The notes under the pieces are model-generated. The model did no database searches, was not told where the DNA came from, and saw nothing but the letters and a program-made list of their open reading frames with translations. Below, piece after piece: positions 20,242 to 51,030 of a stretch of DNA of 64,000 bases (the stretch's first letter is position 1; the number at the start of each line of letters is the position of its first letter). The stretch comes from Acholoe squamosa (Eukaryota; Annelida; Polychaeta; Phyllodocida; Polynoidae). The stretch lies in the NCBI GenBank assembly GCA_949317995.1, contig OX439036.1, positions 28,838,354 to 28,902,353 on the forward strand, read 5' to 3'. A program made the translations under genes and the position numbers.

Positions 20242-20319
20242 GTGTCAGTCGTGTGAGACGCCTAACCAGCAGCCGCCATTTTCCGGATATGACAGAAGTT
20301 CCCGCCTAAACCGTCCATC
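20242..20319 (+). promoter_or_regulatory. 5' UTR segment of the SV2-like gene with an acceptor or promoter motifs
   Basis: A good splice acceptor (TTTCCTTTTTCCAG) ends at 20241, so the coding exon probably begins at 20242 and a non-coding exon lies further upstream. The leader also carries GCCGCCATTTTCCGG (about 20272-20286). It combines a YY1-type GCCGCCAT core with an ETS-type TTCCGG, motifs typical of animal core promoters just downstream of transcription starts. The two readings (acceptor, or start site here) cannot be separated from sequence alone. Confidence 0.4.
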
Positions 20320-20710
20320 ATGTCAGGAGACTATTCAGAAAGTGTAGCCCTCTTCTCCAAGCCTCAGAGTACTTACACAGGGGAGCCGGGAGAGGGTGCA
20401 GACGACACCGGAAAGCAAAATGGACATGCGTACGGACAACTTCCGGACGGAAAGGGCCACCCCAAAGGCCCTAGGCAGGAACCGGAATGGTTGCCACCGG
20501 AAGAAGAAAGTCCAAGCTTTGACGAGATCATGGGTTCGATCCACGAAAAGGCCATAAGTGTGGTTGGGTTTGGTCGCATGCAGTGGATGTTGTATGTTGT
20601 GCTAGGACTAGGGATCATGGGGGATGACATCGAACTCGTCTTAACTGCCTATGTCCTTCCTGGAGCAGAGAGGGAACTCTGTATGGACGAACAGATGAAA
20701 GGATGGCTAG
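20320..20710 (+). CDS. SV2-like synaptic vesicle glycoprotein, first coding exon
   Basis: This exon encodes the first 130 residues of a major facilitator superfamily protein of the SV2 (synaptic vesicle glycoprotein 2) group. Residues 1-85 are a polar cytosolic N-terminus rich in Gly, Pro and Glu. The segment FGRMQWMLYVVLGLGIMGDD (about 88-107) matches the start of SV2 membrane helix 1. The following YVLPGAERELCMDEQMKGWL corresponds to the SV2 stretch VLPSAEKDMCLSDSNKGML (recalled, not aligned). The ATG is the first in the exon and has no competing upstream in-frame start. The exon ends in phase 1 at CTAG|GTGAGT, a strong donor at 20711. SV2 proteins sit in secretory vesicle membranes and modulate regulated exocytosis; that function is by family only. 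The N-terminus is shorter than the roughly 170 residues before helix 1 in vertebrate SV2A. The remaining helices were not found within the window. Confidence 0.85.
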
Positions 20711-22758
20711 GTGAGTCTACTTTTCTATAAACGGATAGGTCCCATACAAGTCTTTTACTATTACCATTTTAGCCCTCTGTGGTATTTGTAATCCACATTT
20801 CCTACCATCAACCATTACCTTTCTTATCATTCTCCTATCGGGCTGATATTTCTTCAATTTTCAACTCGGAGTTCTTTCACTTCACATTGTTTATGTGTAC
20901 TGCACTCAAAAGTGCCCCCCAACCCTGATATAACACTGCAATCAAAAACATGTTATATCCTTCTTGTATGGACACGCCCAGTAAAATGATTATGTCCGTT
21001 GGCTTGTTGCCCTCTCCATAGCTGCACTGTTGAGTCCATAGACCTTATAAACTGCTCTAATCAGAATAAACTGGCTGTATGTAAAGCTCAGTGTCCAACC
21101 ATTACAATTACAGTCGTATGGTATCGAATCACAAATGAATGAATGAATTTCAAAACTTAAAATGGATTCCCATGTAGCCCATACCTGTTTTGGTTCCTTT
21201 TGTATTTGACCGTGAGCAGTTTTCAAAAAGCTTTTTTCCAATTCATCTACATCATTAGCACATTTTGGTCTAAGCCATAAGCAGTCTGGTAATGCAACCG
21301 TATTTAGCCTAGTTTATTATGGTGGATCAATATCAGTATGTCCTCAAGTGAGTAGGCCTACACGCTTCAAGGTGGAAGACGGCCCTCTTGATGGAATATT
21401 TCTCACCAGTTAACTCTCCGAAAAACATAGGCCTATATCATGTGTAGCAGGTATTTGTTTCAGAAAATGTACGAAGGCATTACTATGGAAACTTGCTTTG
21501 TTTATTATACAACTAAATATAATATTCACTTGAATGTGATAAAGATGTTAACAACGGGCTTCGTCAGTCTACATCCTCAGTTAGTAGAATCTATTACACG
21601 GCCGAATTGGGGAAGTGATCTGTGTAGTACAGTTATTTAAAAGGGTGCTTCCGAATCAAAACGAAAGCAGAATGGGCGTTTTTGAACATGGATTGTGGTC
21701 ATGCATGCACACGTACCCCGCTGTCTACTAAATAAAATGTAAGTAGTATAGCTAAAGAGGGTTTAGCAGTAGGCGCATTCAAGATCAGAACAAAGTATAA
21801 AGACTGAATTTTGTGTCCTCAGGAAGTCATTTCTCAAACACTACGTCTAGGCCACCCTCCATTTGTACCTGCCCTCTTACGATCGGTAAGTCTTGGGTAT
21901 ACAGGCAGGCAATCGACGCTAATATAGAGTCACCCACTGCCCCTCACTACAGATGGACTACTACGTATGGGGTGTCCATTTTGTAATGGGTAATCTAGAT
22001 TCCTAGTATTTGGGAAATGGCCAGCAGACGTCCAAGTGTGTAAACACTAAGACGTGCAGAAAAGGGCTGTATCAGGACGATTAAACAGAATGTAAGTAGC
22101 ATGTGGAAACTGGCGTTCACCTCAGTAGGCGAACCAGTAAGTACTCTGTAAGTAGTATACAGAAAGAAAGCTTTGCATCAATACTTAAACCTAAATAACA
22201 TAGTGTAAGCTGGTAAGGATATATATTGAAATGGGGCTTGTGTCAGGGGGCGACCACAGTAATTGCAATATACGGGAAGAGGTTTCTCAATCAGTATATA
22301 ACCCCATTCATCAGAATACATGCAGTATGTTGTACAGAGAGTAAACTGTAAGTACTATAAACACGAGGAGAGCTTTACAAAGGTACATAAACCGTTACAG
22401 AGAAGGTATGGAGTTAGGAAAGTGTGGTTTTGTATCCGTAGGGTCTATGATAAGTGACTAAACTGTTTAAACAGAATTTTAAGGTTTTCGCTCCCACTAA
22501 TTTTTCCTTATTTCCTGTACCATAGTATCTAATTGTTGGTGAGTAACAACCAAACGGTGATGCCATGAGCAGGGTTGTAGTTTGACTGTGCGAGCGGAGC
22601 CATCTGGTGGTGCAAGTCTAAATCAATGTGATCCTCCCTAGTTCCTCAGTCGCTCACAAGGTGGTAGGTGTGCGCATCAACCTAGCTTCGAGACACCTGC
22701 CTTCCTGTTTCATGATATTCCATCACTCCCCTGCCAGAATATTTCTTATTCCTATTTG

Positions 22759-23187: not shown

Positions 23188-23264
23188 ATATGTGACATGA
23201 TCTGCAAAAATGGGGCTTAGTGCAGGGAGTCCTAAGACCCCTTTTCCCATTACATGTCACATAT
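23188..23264. repeat. 77-bp foldback next to the tyrosine-recombinase element
   Basis: ATATGTGACATG at 23188-23199 pairs with CATGTCACATAT at 23253-23264. Inside, AAAAATGGGGCTTAG pairs imperfectly with CTAAGACCCCTTTT. It lies about 95 bases outside the split-repeat element and is probably a separate small foldback. Confidence 0.55.
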
Positions 23265-23358
23265 TACTTATTGACGATCCTGTTGAAGGGGATTTCTTAT
23301 AGAATAGCATGTAGTTGCGTGATACAAGTGGCAGCTCACCTACAGATTATTCACTATA

Positions 23359-24615
23359 TTTGACGCTCCTTATATCAACCTATGATAAATGAGAAGACAA
23401 GTGTTTGGCCTAATGTACGTGAGAGGCTGGGACAATGCCCTATTTATTACACCTTAACTTACATACAAAAAAAAAGCCCCAGAATTCCCAACATGGAAGT
23501 AGGGCGGTTGGGTAGTAACTACCAACACACACAATGACAGGTAAGCAGGTTAGAGTGAGACTCATGTAGGTGTGAGGTACTGGAGGGGGCACCAACCCAC
23601 ACAGGGGAGGTGCTGTAAGGTTATGATGGTCCCTTCCAAATACACATATAATACCGGTATTATATTAACCATTTGACGTTCCTTACATCAACCTATAATA
23701 AATGAGAAGACAAGTGTATTAAGTTTGGACTAATGTACGTGAGAGGCTGGGCCAATGCCAAAACCCCCAATCTTAGCCAGTCACTCAGACCCATCTGGAC
23801 CATCCCAGACTGAGCCTAGTTCATTTGCCACTCTAAGGTCAAAGGCAATATGCTATTCCAATGGCTCTTGAATGTAAAGTTGGACACAGTCTGATTTCCA
23901 ATCACCCCTCAATTTCAGTTCCTCTATCGTAGCTCCAACTGAGCGGAGAAAAGAAGTACCTCCTCTATGGAGACGATGTGAAGAATAGTCTCTCTCATTC
24001 AGACCTGCTCTGTTTGCAATATACTTCAACGTATCCATGTATGTGTCATAAGTGAGCGGCTCATTTTGACCCACAAGAAAGGCAGGGGATTCTCTTGGAG
24101 CAGGGAGTCCAGTGCACGGCACACAGCCTTGTATCCTTTAGCCTTGCCACTGGGATCCTCAGGATCCAATCCCCATACTGGATTGTCTTTGAGCCCTCTA
24201 CATTGATAATCATACCCACTGAGTCATTACAATGTCCTTTCTTTTTAGGACCACTGGTGACAAGGTCACGTTCTGTTTTCCTAACAGTCCTCTGAATGAA
24301 GTCAATATGGCGGCCCTGAATGCTACATGCCCTTCTGTCAGACTCAGATAATTGAACATTGTTGCCAAGGTTTGGGGCAACAATGGGGATGCCCGCTTCA
24401 CCGCCCCAAAAAAAATCAAGTCCCAGAACTCCCAACATGGAGGTAGGGCGGTTGGGTAGTAACTACCAACACATACAATGACAGGTAAGCAGGTGAGACT
24501 GACACACAGGTAGGTGTGAGGTATTGGAGGGGGCACCAACCCACATAGGGGAGGTGCTGTAGGGTTATGACGGTCCCTTACAAATACACATATAATACCG
24601 GTATCATATTAACCA
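23359..24615 (-). mobile_element. fossil tyrosine-recombinase (DIRS-order, Ngaro/PAT-like) element with split direct repeats
   Basis: Read on the minus strand the parts run A1 (24615-24421), recombinase remains (about 24410-23853), B1 (23759-23672), A2 (23671-23477), B2 (23439-23359). A1 and A2 are direct repeats of about 190 bases sharing GGGCGGTTGGGTAGTAACTA. B1 and B2 are direct repeats of about 85 bases sharing ATGTACGTGAGAGGCTGGG. The order A1-ORF-B1-A2-B2 is the split direct repeat layout known from Ngaro and PAT-like members of the DIRS order. The recombinase part shows the SSHRLHRGG box and GDWKSD near the C-terminus, as in the tyrosine recombinases common in marine invertebrates. No gag or reverse transcriptase is present. 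The element is broken, with several breaks. The repeat copies differ by roughly 7-10 percent by eye, so it is not recent. A Crypton would lack these repeats. Confidence 0.7.
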
Positions 24616-25205
24616 TAAGACTGCATTACTATCATTCGGAAGTGTCCTGAACGCGAGATCACTTAACATTACACAGTAACAAAACCAGATTAACTCTAAA
24701 CTTTAATACTGTATAGTGGTACTGTGAGTCCATATATCAATGATGAAACACCTCAATGGTCAAACTAGAATGCCACTTTGACAACGATAAGCACACATGC
24801 GTTTTTTGTTATGTTTTATCCTGTGTATTATAGGCCTACACAGTTACTGACATTCACCCACTGAGATAAAATATAGGTCTATGGGCTCTTGGTAAGCCTT
24901 CCCTGAAACAATCTATAATATCATTATATCATTGTGAAACATAGTTAATGTCGAAGGGGAATAACACCGAAGCAAGTACTTCTCCTAAAGAATTTAATAT
25001 GCACTTCATACAGACAGGACATCACAAACACCAATGTGTTTAATGGCCATAGAATAAAATGCCTCAGTTGCCCATCCAATTATCACTACATCCATGATGC
25101 AAATGATATTATCATAGTCCTCCATTTTATATTGTAATCCAAAAAATCACTTAGGAGAGAATCCGTCAGATTCCGAATCAACCAAACGGTGTTCACATAT
25201 TATTA
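24616..25205. other. 3' flank of the TMEM26-like gene, nothing recognised
   Basis: AT-rich sequence downstream of the minus-strand stop codon. It presumably holds the 3' UTR of that gene; no clear polyadenylation signal was singled out. Confidence 0.45.
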
Positions 25206-38500: not shown

Positions 38501-41500
38501 TCTACCGGGGCTAATCATATTGTCCAACTACATCATCCATATTGTATTGAATAAATATTACACCACATTCAGAGATTCACTGATAAAATAATACAAGAGA
38601 GAGGATTTTGCTTAATGGATTCTTGGAACTCACATAATAGGTCGAGCGATTCTTGTGCAAATGCAATTGCATACAATTATTTCTACTGAAAAATCCTATT
38701 AAATGGATTGTCTGTGCAGGGAATCTGATACCTTAATGTAATCTAAGACAGAGTCGTGTCTGATAAGATGGATTCTACTCGTATTATTGAACAGGCAGAT
38801 GCTTTTCGGACACAGTGGAAATTCTGTACGGGATCGTCTATGAACACCTTTTGCATTTCTTATCTTTACCTTTTAAGCTGTTCTGTTTGGATAAATGATC
38901 GAGTGGGAAAAAAATTAACACGAGATACTGGGTACATTTGTAGAAATTTTGGAAAATGTCTTGACCTGAAAAGGTGAGGCTCCACTACGCGATTTTTGCT
39001 GAAAATCGGAGCTGTTCTCACAAAAGGTGAGGCTCCACTATGCAATTTTTGCTGAAAATCGGAGCTATTCTCACAAAAGCAGACACAAACACAGATTGTA
39101 GAGTGGTATTTGTTATTATTTCAATGTGTAAATAGAAGATTGAGAGAGCTTTTTGTTTATGTGGGGAAGGCTTTGTGTACAATCTCAGGCACATTTTTGT
39201 AGCCAAAAGATGTTTTGTTTACTAAATCAAGTTGACCTTATGTAAATATTGCAGACTTTCACACTGATGACTCTCTGCAACTCAATATCAGACAGGTTTG
39301 ATTTTTACAGTACAAGACCCTGCGATCTGTGTGACTGCTGTGTTGTTATTTATATTTTGCTGTGTTGATGTTTATATATTGAACTCCCACCCAATCACAG
39401 AGTCTATGCAGGTACAGGTTAGTTGGTAAATATGGCACACAAGGAGAGAGATCACCCATAAAATAACCCCTGAAATCTCATGTTTACAATTTTGAATCTC
39501 ATGTTTACAATATAGGAATGTCAACACCCTATACCTTAGGCACTATAGGGATAAAATTAGGTGAGACTGTACAAAAGAATCGCGTAATGGAGCCTCACCT
39601 AAAAACGGTAGGGATGAAAAGAGAACCTAAATGATGATAAAATGTGAATGAGAGGCGAAATTTGATAAGCAACAAGTAGGATCATATAAAAGGCTAAATA
39701 AAACTAGAAAGAAGAGTAAAACAGAGGAAGAACGATGGTATAAGCACTCTTGTGAAGAAGAGTGACTCCACAGCTATTACTTTATTTTAGGACTCTTACC
39801 CCTGTGCCTAGTGAGTACTTGTTGGAATAGTGTAGGACGGCTGAGGCTAAGATCGATGCGATCTTAGTGCTGGCTAGGAAATGTGAACACAGTCTGATCT
39901 TAAGATCGCTTAATAGGATAAGGTAGAATAATTCCTAAGATCGCTGGGGTTGTGATCCCAGGATGTTTTGAATTAACCTCCTGCTTAATATATAGCCTAT
40001 AGATACTGATGGTGAGGTAGTGGATGGTGGTATGTGGCGGAAGCAGCAATACCACATACTGAGTGAGGTTCGTTAGTGGTATTATGTGCGTGCAACGTTT
40101 CATCAGTCCACACCTAAGCCTTTTAATCTCTACACAGGCCAGTGTAGCTATGGAGAGCAGAGACTGGGAGGTCCCTAATGAGTGGTGATATACTGTGTGC
40201 CCACCATATATATAGGAAATGGCGTCTGTTATCGGACTGAATCAGTACTATGTTTATCCAAGTAATCATGCTCTGTGTGCATATTGTATTTATTTTCTGC
40301 TCGTCGTTAAGCTCTGTAATCCTTCCTATAATAAGATGATGAGGTTACAAGTAAGTCACACAAAAATCATGTGTTTCAGGTCACAGAAATTTAAGTCAGG
40401 TTGCATGTTCCTTCAAATATAGATCTAGGCCACTCTCACGACTCACCGATAGTTGCCGTAACTTCACTAGTCACCTCATATCACCAATTATGACTATACC
40501 AATAAGTTTGGTCTCCTTCGAAAATTGAAAACAGAAGCTAGGGTCGGCTTTTACAAACTAAGCTTTGGCAGTCATGTATATACCTTTCTATTTGTAAAGG
40601 CCCTTAGACTTTTAAATCCTAGTCTTCTAACTGTAGTGAAAATGCACATTTCGGTCAATATCTTATGTTAATATGAAATACATTAAAGCTACCAGCTCAC
40701 ACCCTGCGAGATATCCATCACTATTTTCCAAATTTTAGTCATCACTATTTTCCAAATGTTAGTCAGTAACTGCTCCTCACTCAAAATAACTAGTACACTA
40801 GAGCTTGTACCAATGAGACTGGGCATTAATTCGAGAGGATTACTCCAGAGCTAATACTAAGCATCAATATTAAGTTTTGAAATGATGAAAAAGTCTATAG
40901 CACTAGCAGATCAACAAAGACGTACAGAAATGCAATGCTGAGATATCTTTCATTGTGATGAAATCAATGCCCCTTCTGCAAATGAACTTCAAGAAATGGT
41001 TTTCTTTCCTCTAGTAGTATATTTGTTCTGTAAGGGGATTCCACATTCTCCATCTAGGCACACGTCTCTTCATTATATGGAATCTACAATAGTTCCGTGT
41101 ATCTATACTTCTTCCACTCAATATCTATACGCCAATCGCCTAAAGTACATCTGTAATATGCCCCAACTGGAGACTCCCCGTCCATTTGTAGAGTCGCTAT
41201 GTCTGCGTTCCATACGAGGAATAGCACCAACAAACTGATAAGAACAGTACTGTGAACCCCCTCCCCACCCATCTATAACATTCACAATGAGACGGATAGT
41301 CCACTCTAGCAAACAGTCAAAGAGTAGTCGGTTTCCAAGCTTTAATATCTTCTCACTTGTATATTGCAGTAGAAGCAGTGGTCTATTGGATGGAAATTCT
41401 CTTAGATATATCGGACATTTCCCCTCTGGTTGTGTAGATCTATATGAGGATATGTGAGAGCATCAGAGCTACAGATGATGATATGATGGGATACACAGTC

Positions 41501-42520: not shown

Positions 42521-43302
42521 GGGCCTTTCTCCACTAGGCGACAAATAGCCACAACGACCATCGGTACCGTATATGAGCATGTGAGTGGGGTTGAGGTACC
42601 TCAAAAGGGGACCTCTCAATACCCAGATCGGTACCAAATCGTCTGAAAAAAAAATCAAACAATGTGAATATCGTGACAGATACCTGCATCGATCACGATG
42701 ATCGTATAAGGTGAGGCTCCACTACGCGATTTTTGCCAAAAATCGGAGCTATTCTCACAAAAGCAGACACAAACACAGATTATAGAGTGGTATTTGTTAT
42801 TATTTCAAGGTGTAAATAGAAGATTGAGAGGGCTTTTTGTTTATGTGGGGAAGGTTTTGTTTACAATCTCAGGCACATTTTTGTTGCCAAAAGATGTTTT
42901 TGTTTACTAAATCAAGTTGACCTATTGTAAATATTGCAGACTTTCACACTGATGACTCTCTGCAACTCAATATCAGACAGGTTTGATTTTTACAGTACAA
43001 GACCCTGCGATCTGTGTGACTGCTGTGTTGTTATTCATATTTTGCTGTGTTGATGTTTATACATTGAACTCCCACCCAATCACAGCGTCTGTGCAGGTGC
43101 AGCTTAGTTGGTAAATATGGCACATAAGGAGAGAGATCACCCATAATATAACCCCTGAAATCTCATGTTTACAATTTTGAATCTCATGTTTACAATATAG
43201 GAATGTCAACACCCTATACCTTAGGCACTAAAGGGATAAAATTAGGTGAGAATGTACCAACAAATCGCATAGTGGAGCCTCACCTATAGTGGAGACAGGC
43301 CC
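42521..43302. mobile_element. Harbinger-type MITE carrying a nested MITE
   Basis: The outer ends GGGCCTTTCTCCACTA (42521) and its inverted partner TAGTGGAGACAGGCCC (to 43302) are flanked by TTA on both sides (42518-42520 and 43303-43305). TTA/TAA target duplications and GGGCC-type ends are typical of PIF/Harbinger elements. Removing the nested element leaves an outer element of about 215 bases without coding capacity. Confidence 0.75.
42719..43285. mobile_element. 570-bp MITE, copy 2, nested
   Basis: Second copy of the AGGTGAGGCTCCACTA family, with the single normal left end. It lies inside the GGGCCT element, with ATA on both sides. The ends and 3-base flanks are compatible with a second Harbinger-like family. 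Its internal sequence matches the 38972-39600 copy along its length. Confidence 0.85.
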
Positions 43303-49914: not shown

Positions 49915-51030
49915 CTGGATGCATCAGAGGCTTTTGACAGAGTGAATCATGCAAAGTTTTTTGGTAAGCTAGTGTAGCATGGTGTCCCTGGATTCATTGT
50001 TAGTATACTTCTCTACTGGTATAGCTTTCAGAAAGTGTCAGTTAGATGAGGCGGTGCTATTTCTGCAGATTTCACAGTTTGTAATGGTGTAAGGCAGGGT
50101 GGGATACTCTCTCCTCACCTGTTTAACTTATACATGGATGACCTGTCTAATAAGCTAAATGTTTGAAATACTGGCTGTTAGACTGGATCAAATGTTGTTA
50201 ATCATTTATTGTATGCTGATGACCTTGTAATATTCACCCCATCTAGCCTCAGGATAGCTAGGCTGTTAGAGATTTGTGGCCAATATGGTAAAGATAATGA
50301 TACTAATTATAACCCACTGAAAAATGCATTGATGATTGTACGCTCCACTGTAGACAAACAGATGCAGGTCCCAGTGTTCTCTCTAAATGGTTCTATACTC
50401 AAAGATTGTCATAAGGTAAAATATCTGGGACATGTTATCTCTGATACAATGAGAGATGATAGTGATATTCAGCGACAAGGGAGGATGATATATGCACAGG
50501 GTAATATGCTCATATGAAAGTTCCATATGTGCAGTATAGAAGTAAAGATTCAATTATTCAGTGCTTATTGCACACCTTTGTATACGGCCCAGTTATGGTC
50601 CATTTATAATAAGGGTTCTATGCGAAAGTTGACAGTTGCATATAATGATGCTTTGCATATGCTTCTTGGTATGCCCAGGCACACTAGTGCTGGGGAGACC
50701 TTTGCTGTCTGCGGTTTACTGACTTGTGGTGCAACTATAAGAAGATTTATATATAGTTTTATAAGCCGTTTAAAAATGTCAGAAAATAAGCTGATAAAAA
50801 GCTTAGTGGACCCAGCAACGGGTGATTACCAATGCACATCCTGTATCTGGAGATGTTGGTATCAAGAGGTATACCTTTTAAGAATTTCTGTTCTCCATCT
50901 GCATATGAGATGATGGACAGGCAAAGAGTGATGGGGAGAAGGAAGGAAGGACAGAATGAAAGAAACAAAGAAAGAAAGAAAAATTTATATTTAAGAAAAG
51001 AAAGAAAGACAGAGAGCCGAAAGCACATTA
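49915..51030 (+). mobile_element. 5'-truncated LINE with decayed reverse transcriptase
   Basis: Translation from 49915 gives LDASEAFDRVNH, then VRQGGILSPHLFNLYMDDL (about 50087-50143), then the catalytic YADDL (about 50213-50227). KYLGHVISD and YAQGNMLI follow further on. These are reverse transcriptase motifs of the jockey/CR1-like LINE superfamilies. The reading frame is broken by stops near 49976, 50047, 50164 and 50179, and by a TGA at 50515. Two open pieces, 50209-50514 and 50527-50910, remain. The endonuclease and the N-terminal part are missing, as in 5'-truncated copies. The 3' side ends in GA-rich repeats (GAAGGAAGGA, AAAGAAAGAAAG) to about 51015, perhaps a degenerate tail. It is inactive. 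Confidence 0.85.

Follow-up and report, generated by a model that had tools for sequence, protein, structure and literature searches.

The locus

The window, by which we mean the whole stretch of Acholoe squamosa DNA that was analysed (64,000 nucleotides), carries on its minus strand a unit of 1259 bp with split direct repeats (23358-24616). Its order is A1, the relic of a tyrosine recombinase (YR) gene, B1, A2 and B2. A sequence-only reading of the same DNA had given this order and strand, which we confirm; the span that it noted, 23359-24615, is one base shorter at each end. The parts of the unit are as follows.

24411..24616, minus strand: A1, left terminal repeat of 206 bp, which ceases to match A2 in a T-run just below 24411
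24404..24410, minus strand: deletion junction, where the T-run at the A1 end is joined inside the YR gene, at about residue 135-137 of 348
23856..24403, minus strand: YR relic, catalytic part, placed by alignment with the intact YR ORFs of two other loci, L014 and L017
23671..23759, minus strand: B1, internal copy of the right repeat, with a 2-base overlap (AT) with A2
23467..23672, minus strand: A2, internal copy of the left repeat, containing a 20-bp palindrome at 23646-23665
23440..23466, minus strand: A2-B2 spacer, 27 bp, with AATAAA at 23448-23443
23358..23439, minus strand: B2, right terminal repeat

A1 and A2 differ at 17 of 206 aligned bases (blastn E ~1e-82), and B1 and B2 at 5 of 82 aligned bases plus one 7-bp gap (blastn E ~1e-27). 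There are no extra copies of A or B within the 64-kb window (E 1e-3). Reverse transcriptase (RT) and gag are both missing, A1 being joined straight to the YR relic, and the earlier description of a 1.26-kb unit devoid of the two genes holds good. On the left the boundary of the unit falls between ..GTCTT and AT, on the right between AT and ATAGTG. When the flank ends were compared nothing common was found, that is, no target-site duplication. A possible likeness of the target flanks to the ends of the element itself was unconvincing and was dropped: of 11,386 AT sites, 3.8% reached the left score, 40.9% the right score and 6.9% the sum of the two.

The palindrome of the A repeat starts at base 8; it is perfect in A2 (23646-23665) and has one mismatch in A1 (24590-24609). 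Palindromes are also present at base 7-8 of A in L014 (18 bp) and L017 (16 bp), with a centre that differs from that of the window copy. The symmetry seems to have been conserved though the sequence changed, and it could mark a candidate binding or promoter site.

Several other features of the window may be recorded here. A hairpin with 33-nt arms, perhaps a small MITE, lies at 23188-23264, near the right end of the element. Two copies of another element, 39024-39601 and 42708-43286, are 95% identical over 579 bp and have inverted ends (GGTGAGGCTCCA ... TGGAGCCTCACC); this element looks like a MITE. An ORF on the plus strand, 20293-20727, resembles the N-terminal part of synaptic vesicle glycoprotein 2A (PDB, E 7e-13) and is perhaps a first coding exon. 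A different retroelement has left an RT remnant at 50182-50514 (RVT_1 E 3.4e-6, narrowly below the cut-off). Rfam at the gathering threshold and ARAGORN gave no match on the window.

The recombinase relic

The relic corresponds to about residues 135-344 of the intact YR (348 aa). It lies in two reading frames, three counting a short middle piece. The first piece and the last are in one frame, the middle piece is in another and the short piece in the third, so that the frame changes two or three times. Its identity is firm because it can be aligned with YR ORFs that are intact elsewhere in this genome, which bears out the earlier recognition of a tyrosine recombinase remnant; the profile matches alone are weak. 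A tblastn comparison of the L014 YR with the window covers residues 135-344 at 52.8% identity over 212 columns, and the three pieces are 60-65% identical to the intact L014 ORF. The 94-aa C-terminal piece gave a single match in each of two libraries, Pfam PF00589 at E 0.26 and an archaeal XerA-type recombinase of NCBIfam at E 0.012, and none in PHROGs. The pieces joined by X gave a PHROG integrase at E 0.11 and no match in Pfam or NCBIfam.

With the catalytic residues named as we take them to be from general knowledge of tyrosine recombinases, Arg I (LLRKQ in the intact YRs) has become Gly in the window copy (codon at 24281) and Arg II (HSLRRGG in the intact YRs) has become His (codon at 23969), while the active-site Tyr is retained (codon at 23876). 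The protein is expected to be inactive in its present form. His in place of Arg II is common to the window copy, L010, L012 and L013. One might read this as the mark of a dead lineage mobilised in trans, a reading that we did not use, as repeated CpG decay of the Arg codon explains the pattern equally.

Searches beyond this genome added little. No YR relatives were found in viral contigs or in GTDB genome contigs; one exact piece of A was absent from both sets and one piece of B from the viral contigs. A tblastn search against phages gave matches at chance level only (best E 1), and a PDB sequence search gave nothing useful. The predicted single-sequence fold of the 94-aa piece has a mean pLDDT of 55, too low for use.

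Complete relatives in the same genome

The genome search covered the source assembly, 1.481 Gb in 63 contigs. Complete elements occupy four loci (L014, L015, L017 and L018). They measure 4496-4517 bp and have the order A1-gag-RT/RNase H-YR-B1-A2-B2. All their ORFs are open (a gag-like one, one of 851 aa and a YR of 348 aa, stop to stop), and their repeats are 98-100% (A1/A2) and 99-100% (B1/B2) identical. The ORFs of two of these relatives, L014 and L017, were scanned for domains: they give RVT_1 at E ~1e-15, PF00589 (YR) at E ~8e-4 and RVT_3 (RNase H-like) at E 0.017 and 0.036, both below its cut-off, and no methyltransferase (MT) family at E <= 0.1. The gag-like ORF was judged by eye from a zinc-knuckle-like motif, no Pfam family reaching the cut-off.

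The details of the ends agree with those of the window copy. L014-L018 share with it AT at the B1/A2 junction, T before A1 and A after B2. Read by eye, their flanks are T before the first AT and A after the last, an insertion without target-site duplication. The homology of A1 and A2 stops in or just after the T-run in these elements as well. The A2-B2 spacer is present at the same place in L014-L018 and also in solo A-B units; its AATAAA is found in the window copy, L015, L016 and L018, and in a one-base variant in L014 and L017.

With the L017 element as query there are at least six full-length copies, itself included, at a rounded 100%, plus copies at about 81%; as 33 of 180 candidates were scored, these counts are lower bounds. 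Since the full-length copies are nearly identical to one another and their repeats nearly identical within each copy, they point to very recent activity of a Ngaro-type group in the Acholoe squamosa genome.

When the whole window unit was the query, there were at least 41 matches including itself (40 of 85 candidates scored). Among the matches listed, the longest relatives in the YR part have 65-68% DNA identity (e.g. C2:51797693, C16:46238292 and C11:23305058). Had the unit a longer relative with the same repeats, as the sequence-only reading envisaged, the parent would be identified. This expectation was answered in part: elements with the same layout and complete coding are there, and none found in the genome search carries the window's own A and B repeats together with a complete coding region. 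The complete elements of about 4.5 kb are therefore relatives and not the direct parent of the window copy. Six loci whose A repeat is 83-91% like that of the window (L007, L008 and L029-L032) have no B and no YR within the 3.2-3.5 kb examined at each.

Seven units consisting of A, spacer and B only were read (308-361 bp; L003, L004 and L020-L024). Six of them have a full or almost full A part and L024 a cut one, and AATAAA stands near the spacer place in four of the seven. Their flanks vary, with A before L023 and G after L004 and L021. Such units may derive from recombination between A1 and A2. L023 and L024 lie 14 kb apart with both flanks common as far as read, and so are one insertion duplicated together with its surroundings.

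What kind of element it is

Let us consider simpler origins of the layout. An order A-B-A-B could by itself arise from plain tandem duplication of an A-YR-B segment followed by loss of the second YR, with no retrotransposition. However, nothing between A1 and B1 matches the A2-B2 spacer, intact elements elsewhere show the same order together with RT and YR, and solo A-spacer-B units occur at other loci; we give this origin almost no credence. The same is true of a Crypton, a DNA transposon with a YR only. The window copy does have a YR and no RT, but Cryptons, in the account consulted in part, are devoid of long direct repeats (PMC3212892), which the window copy has, and its relatives here have RT as well as split direct repeats.

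Among retrotransposons of the DIRS order, split direct repeats that follow a forward YR in an element without MT indicate Ngaro (or VIPER), according to published criteria (PMC4157794). VIPER and TATE are split-repeat elements of kinetoplastids and make up a clade of their own; the SV2-like exon in the window is taken as the sign of an animal host. The window copy has the split direct repeats A1...B1-A2-B2, a forward YR and the internal repeats downstream of YR. RT/RNase H and a gag-like ORF, without MT, are found in L014 and L017, that is, in relatives rather than in the direct parent; the window copy itself has neither gene and is filed as a deleted copy. We would accordingly assign its parent to the Ngaro type, by the repeats and domains rather than by a tree. 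Other classes were considered and set aside. The echinoderm form of PAT-like elements (Pat1, split direct repeats plus MT) shares the repeats, and no MT match was seen in L014 and L017. In nematode Pat1 and in Kangaroo the internal repeats lie between MT and YR, or YR is inverted, while here the repeats come after YR and YR is forward. DIRS1-like elements have inverted terminal repeats and an internal complementary region; the terminal repeats here are direct.

We conclude, with a probability of roughly 85%, that the unit is one old, decayed and internally deleted copy of a Ngaro-type (DIRS order) retrotransposon, a figure that includes the case in which the deletion came late. Of the sequence-only reading, the suggestion of replication-linked split direct repeats of the Ngaro or PAT kind is upheld by the same layout in L014, L015, L017 and L018, and that of a fossil with lost parts by complete relatives of about 4.5 kb with RT and a gag-like ORF. 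The recurrence of the order A1-B1-A2-B2 in intact relatives also disposes of the fear that the layout is a coincidence.

The deletion and its junction

Compared with L014, about 3.2 kb are gone from the window copy between the A1 end and the middle of the YR gene. The alternative first offered for the locus was a short non-autonomous family, spreading as a unit of 1.26 kb with this very junction. All four repeats are kept in the window copy, which speaks for it, and short derivatives of split-repeat elements do exist, SIRE of Trypanosoma cruzi being the example in the part of the literature consulted (PMC6681497). The junction itself speaks against it. A query of 131 bases spanning the A1-YR junction gave nine matches (9 of 9 candidates scored). 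A2 of the window copy is one of them, and A1 of the window copy alone reads through the junction; within the sensitivity of the search, no second copy of this junction was found in 1.48 Gb. Likewise, none of the 40 other matches to the whole unit crosses from A1 into YR (40 of 85 candidates scored). The check proposed beforehand, many copies with one junction as opposed to unique copies of varied length, came out as unique junctions and varied lengths, which leaves the family idea unsupported and, in our judgement, very improbable.

The left junctions of ten internally deleted copies were read (the window copy, L010, L016 and L033-L039). In seven (the window copy, L010, L016, L033, L036, L037 and L039) the break falls no more than about 16 bases from the 3' end of A1. 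The A end is the same in L035 and is followed there by filler of about 50 bases, which is in part A-rich and may have been copied from a poly(A) tail; if L035 is counted the figure is 8 of 10. The left break of L034 is at position 251, about 60 bases beyond the A1 end, and that of L038, the youngest deleted copy, at 726. The right breaks, in coordinates of L017, are at 1893 (L033), 1969 (L034), 2181 (L035), 2040 (L036), 2793 (L037), 2860 (L038) and 2195 (L039). In L016, which is 2940 bp long, 99.2-99.5% identical to L014 where aligned and 100% identical between A1 and A2, a short common TGT marks the junction of A1 with the RT region. A1 is joined to the RT region in L010 also; there A2 matches only in its first part and B2 was not found.

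The ten copies are a non-random sample: the window copy was given, L010 and L016 came from the search with the whole unit, and L033-L039 were first found with a query that left out the gag region. L033-L038 recur in the full-length survey with L017 and L039 does not. In that survey (33 of 180 candidates scored) at least six copies, L033-L038, have A1 and B2 and miss more than 300 inner bases; four of the six break at 190, the A1 end, and the right break differs in every copy. Excluded from the six were copies with no 3' part listed (such as C12:74865939, C16:34532456, C2:115230193 and C16:15266223), those without an A1 row (C7:2149768, which begins at 613, and C11:14938827, at 410) and those with small gaps or inserts (such as C13:55611041, C14:68301302, C7:51005003 and C3:48358600). 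L040-L042 stand outside the ten; A1 was not seen there within the 600-790 bases that precede the first inner match. By a rough estimate, if breaks were scattered over the 1.7 kb or more that separate A1 from the right breaks, far fewer than 1 in 100 would fall within ten bases of a given point.

It is conceivable that the insertion at this site was a full-length Ngaro-type element, the middle of which disappeared afterwards in an ordinary chromosomal deletion. Such a late event needs no help in trans. The repeats differ at 22 of 288 aligned bases, which corresponds to about 3.8% change per copy since insertion; at this level one would expect about two indels in 550 bp, and two or three frame changes are observed, so that the damage to the YR fits decay after insertion. 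L038, moreover, is a recent deletion that starts away from A1. On the other hand, it is not evident why a chromosomal deletion should begin at the A1 end, yet 7 of 10 deleted copies do, and L016 was already deleted while its A1 and A2 are still 100% identical, though this does not date the deletion itself. On balance we regard a chromosomal origin of the deletion as unlikely, while granting it far more weight than the other alternatives.

The recurrent left break at the A1 end suggests template switching during reverse transcription. In the model for split-repeat elements, the RNA is missing the extreme ends, and these are restored via the internal junction. Goodwin and Poulter (2004) and Poulter and Butler (2015) are said to have set out this replication model, which to our knowledge rests mainly on repeat anatomy. 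Applied to the present elements, the RNA would not contain the extreme ends of A1 and B2, and the internal B1-A2 junction would supply both in reverse transcription; an AATAAA just before B2 would fit an RNA with its end inside B2. Annealing of the repeats during reverse transcription belongs to the portion of the model given in PMC6681497. The product would be a circle with B joined to A, which the recombinase would insert at a short AT match without target-site duplication; for DIRS1, insertion of a circle at a 3-bp match, again with no duplication, is mentioned in the part of PMC3266345 that we draw on. If synthesis stopped, or the RNA was broken, inside the YR gene, the new strand might switch to the T-run at the end of the A repeat. 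The A repeat would then be copied in full, the product would keep A1, B1, A2 and B2, and it could be inserted with the enzymes of an intact relative. The circle, the template switch, the help in trans and the timing of the deletion are what we infer here.

A more general proposal can be made tentatively, and we would put it at somewhat less than an even chance: Ngaro-type elements in this genome may shorten repeatedly, reverse transcription stopping at a variable inner point and restarting at the 3' end of A, with a copy that can be mobilised by borrowed enzymes as the outcome. Against the A1 end as the sole site of the break stand L038 (726), L034 (251) and the copies that start at 613 and 410. 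If correct, this would be a Ngaro counterpart of the 5' truncation of LINEs, with the difference that a still mobilisable unit is left. The window copy alone is one more degraded copy of a Ngaro-type element, and its value lies in the relatives to which it led. The element is of an ordinary kind, and it is the left break common to the deleted copies that might interest a specialist. Such copies bear on reverse transcription in split-repeat elements and offer a test of the model that needs sequences only. In the portions of the DIRS-order literature at hand, none of them retrieved by a search on exactly this point, we met no description of left breaks clustered at the A1 end.

Comparison with known systems

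The closest likeness is to Ngaro elements, which have the arrangement A1-[ORFs]-B1A2B2, with YR on the coding strand just before B1 and no target-site duplication. The window copy differs from a complete Ngaro in that gag, RT/RNase H and the initial ~135 residues of YR are gone, and in its length of about 1.26 kb.

Isolated A-B units and shortened Ngaro copies are found beside full-length ones in Cafeteria burkhardae, as described in the section of that genome report on which we rely (PMC8547959). The deletions are on the 5' side there, as in the window copy; according to the same section they are of about 2 kb and cover ORF1, whereas in the window copy everything from the A1 end into YR is gone.

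SIRE, the short form of VIPER in Trypanosoma cruzi, is another short derivative of a split-repeat YR element, and in the excerpts available it corresponds to A2-B2 (PMC6681497, PMC12278014). As described there it has no YR part; the window unit in contrast keeps four repeats and a YR relic, and is the sole unit found with its junction. The solo A-B units of the present genome are what would correspond to SIRE of T. cruzi, as far as it is characterised in the parts of PMC6681497 used here.

Finally, the Ngaro relics of amphioxus resemble the elements described here in being Ngaro-like elements of an animal genome with split direct repeats; the amphioxus element has three ORFs in the passages on it that we cite, and is compared by description rather than by sequence (PMC2632668).
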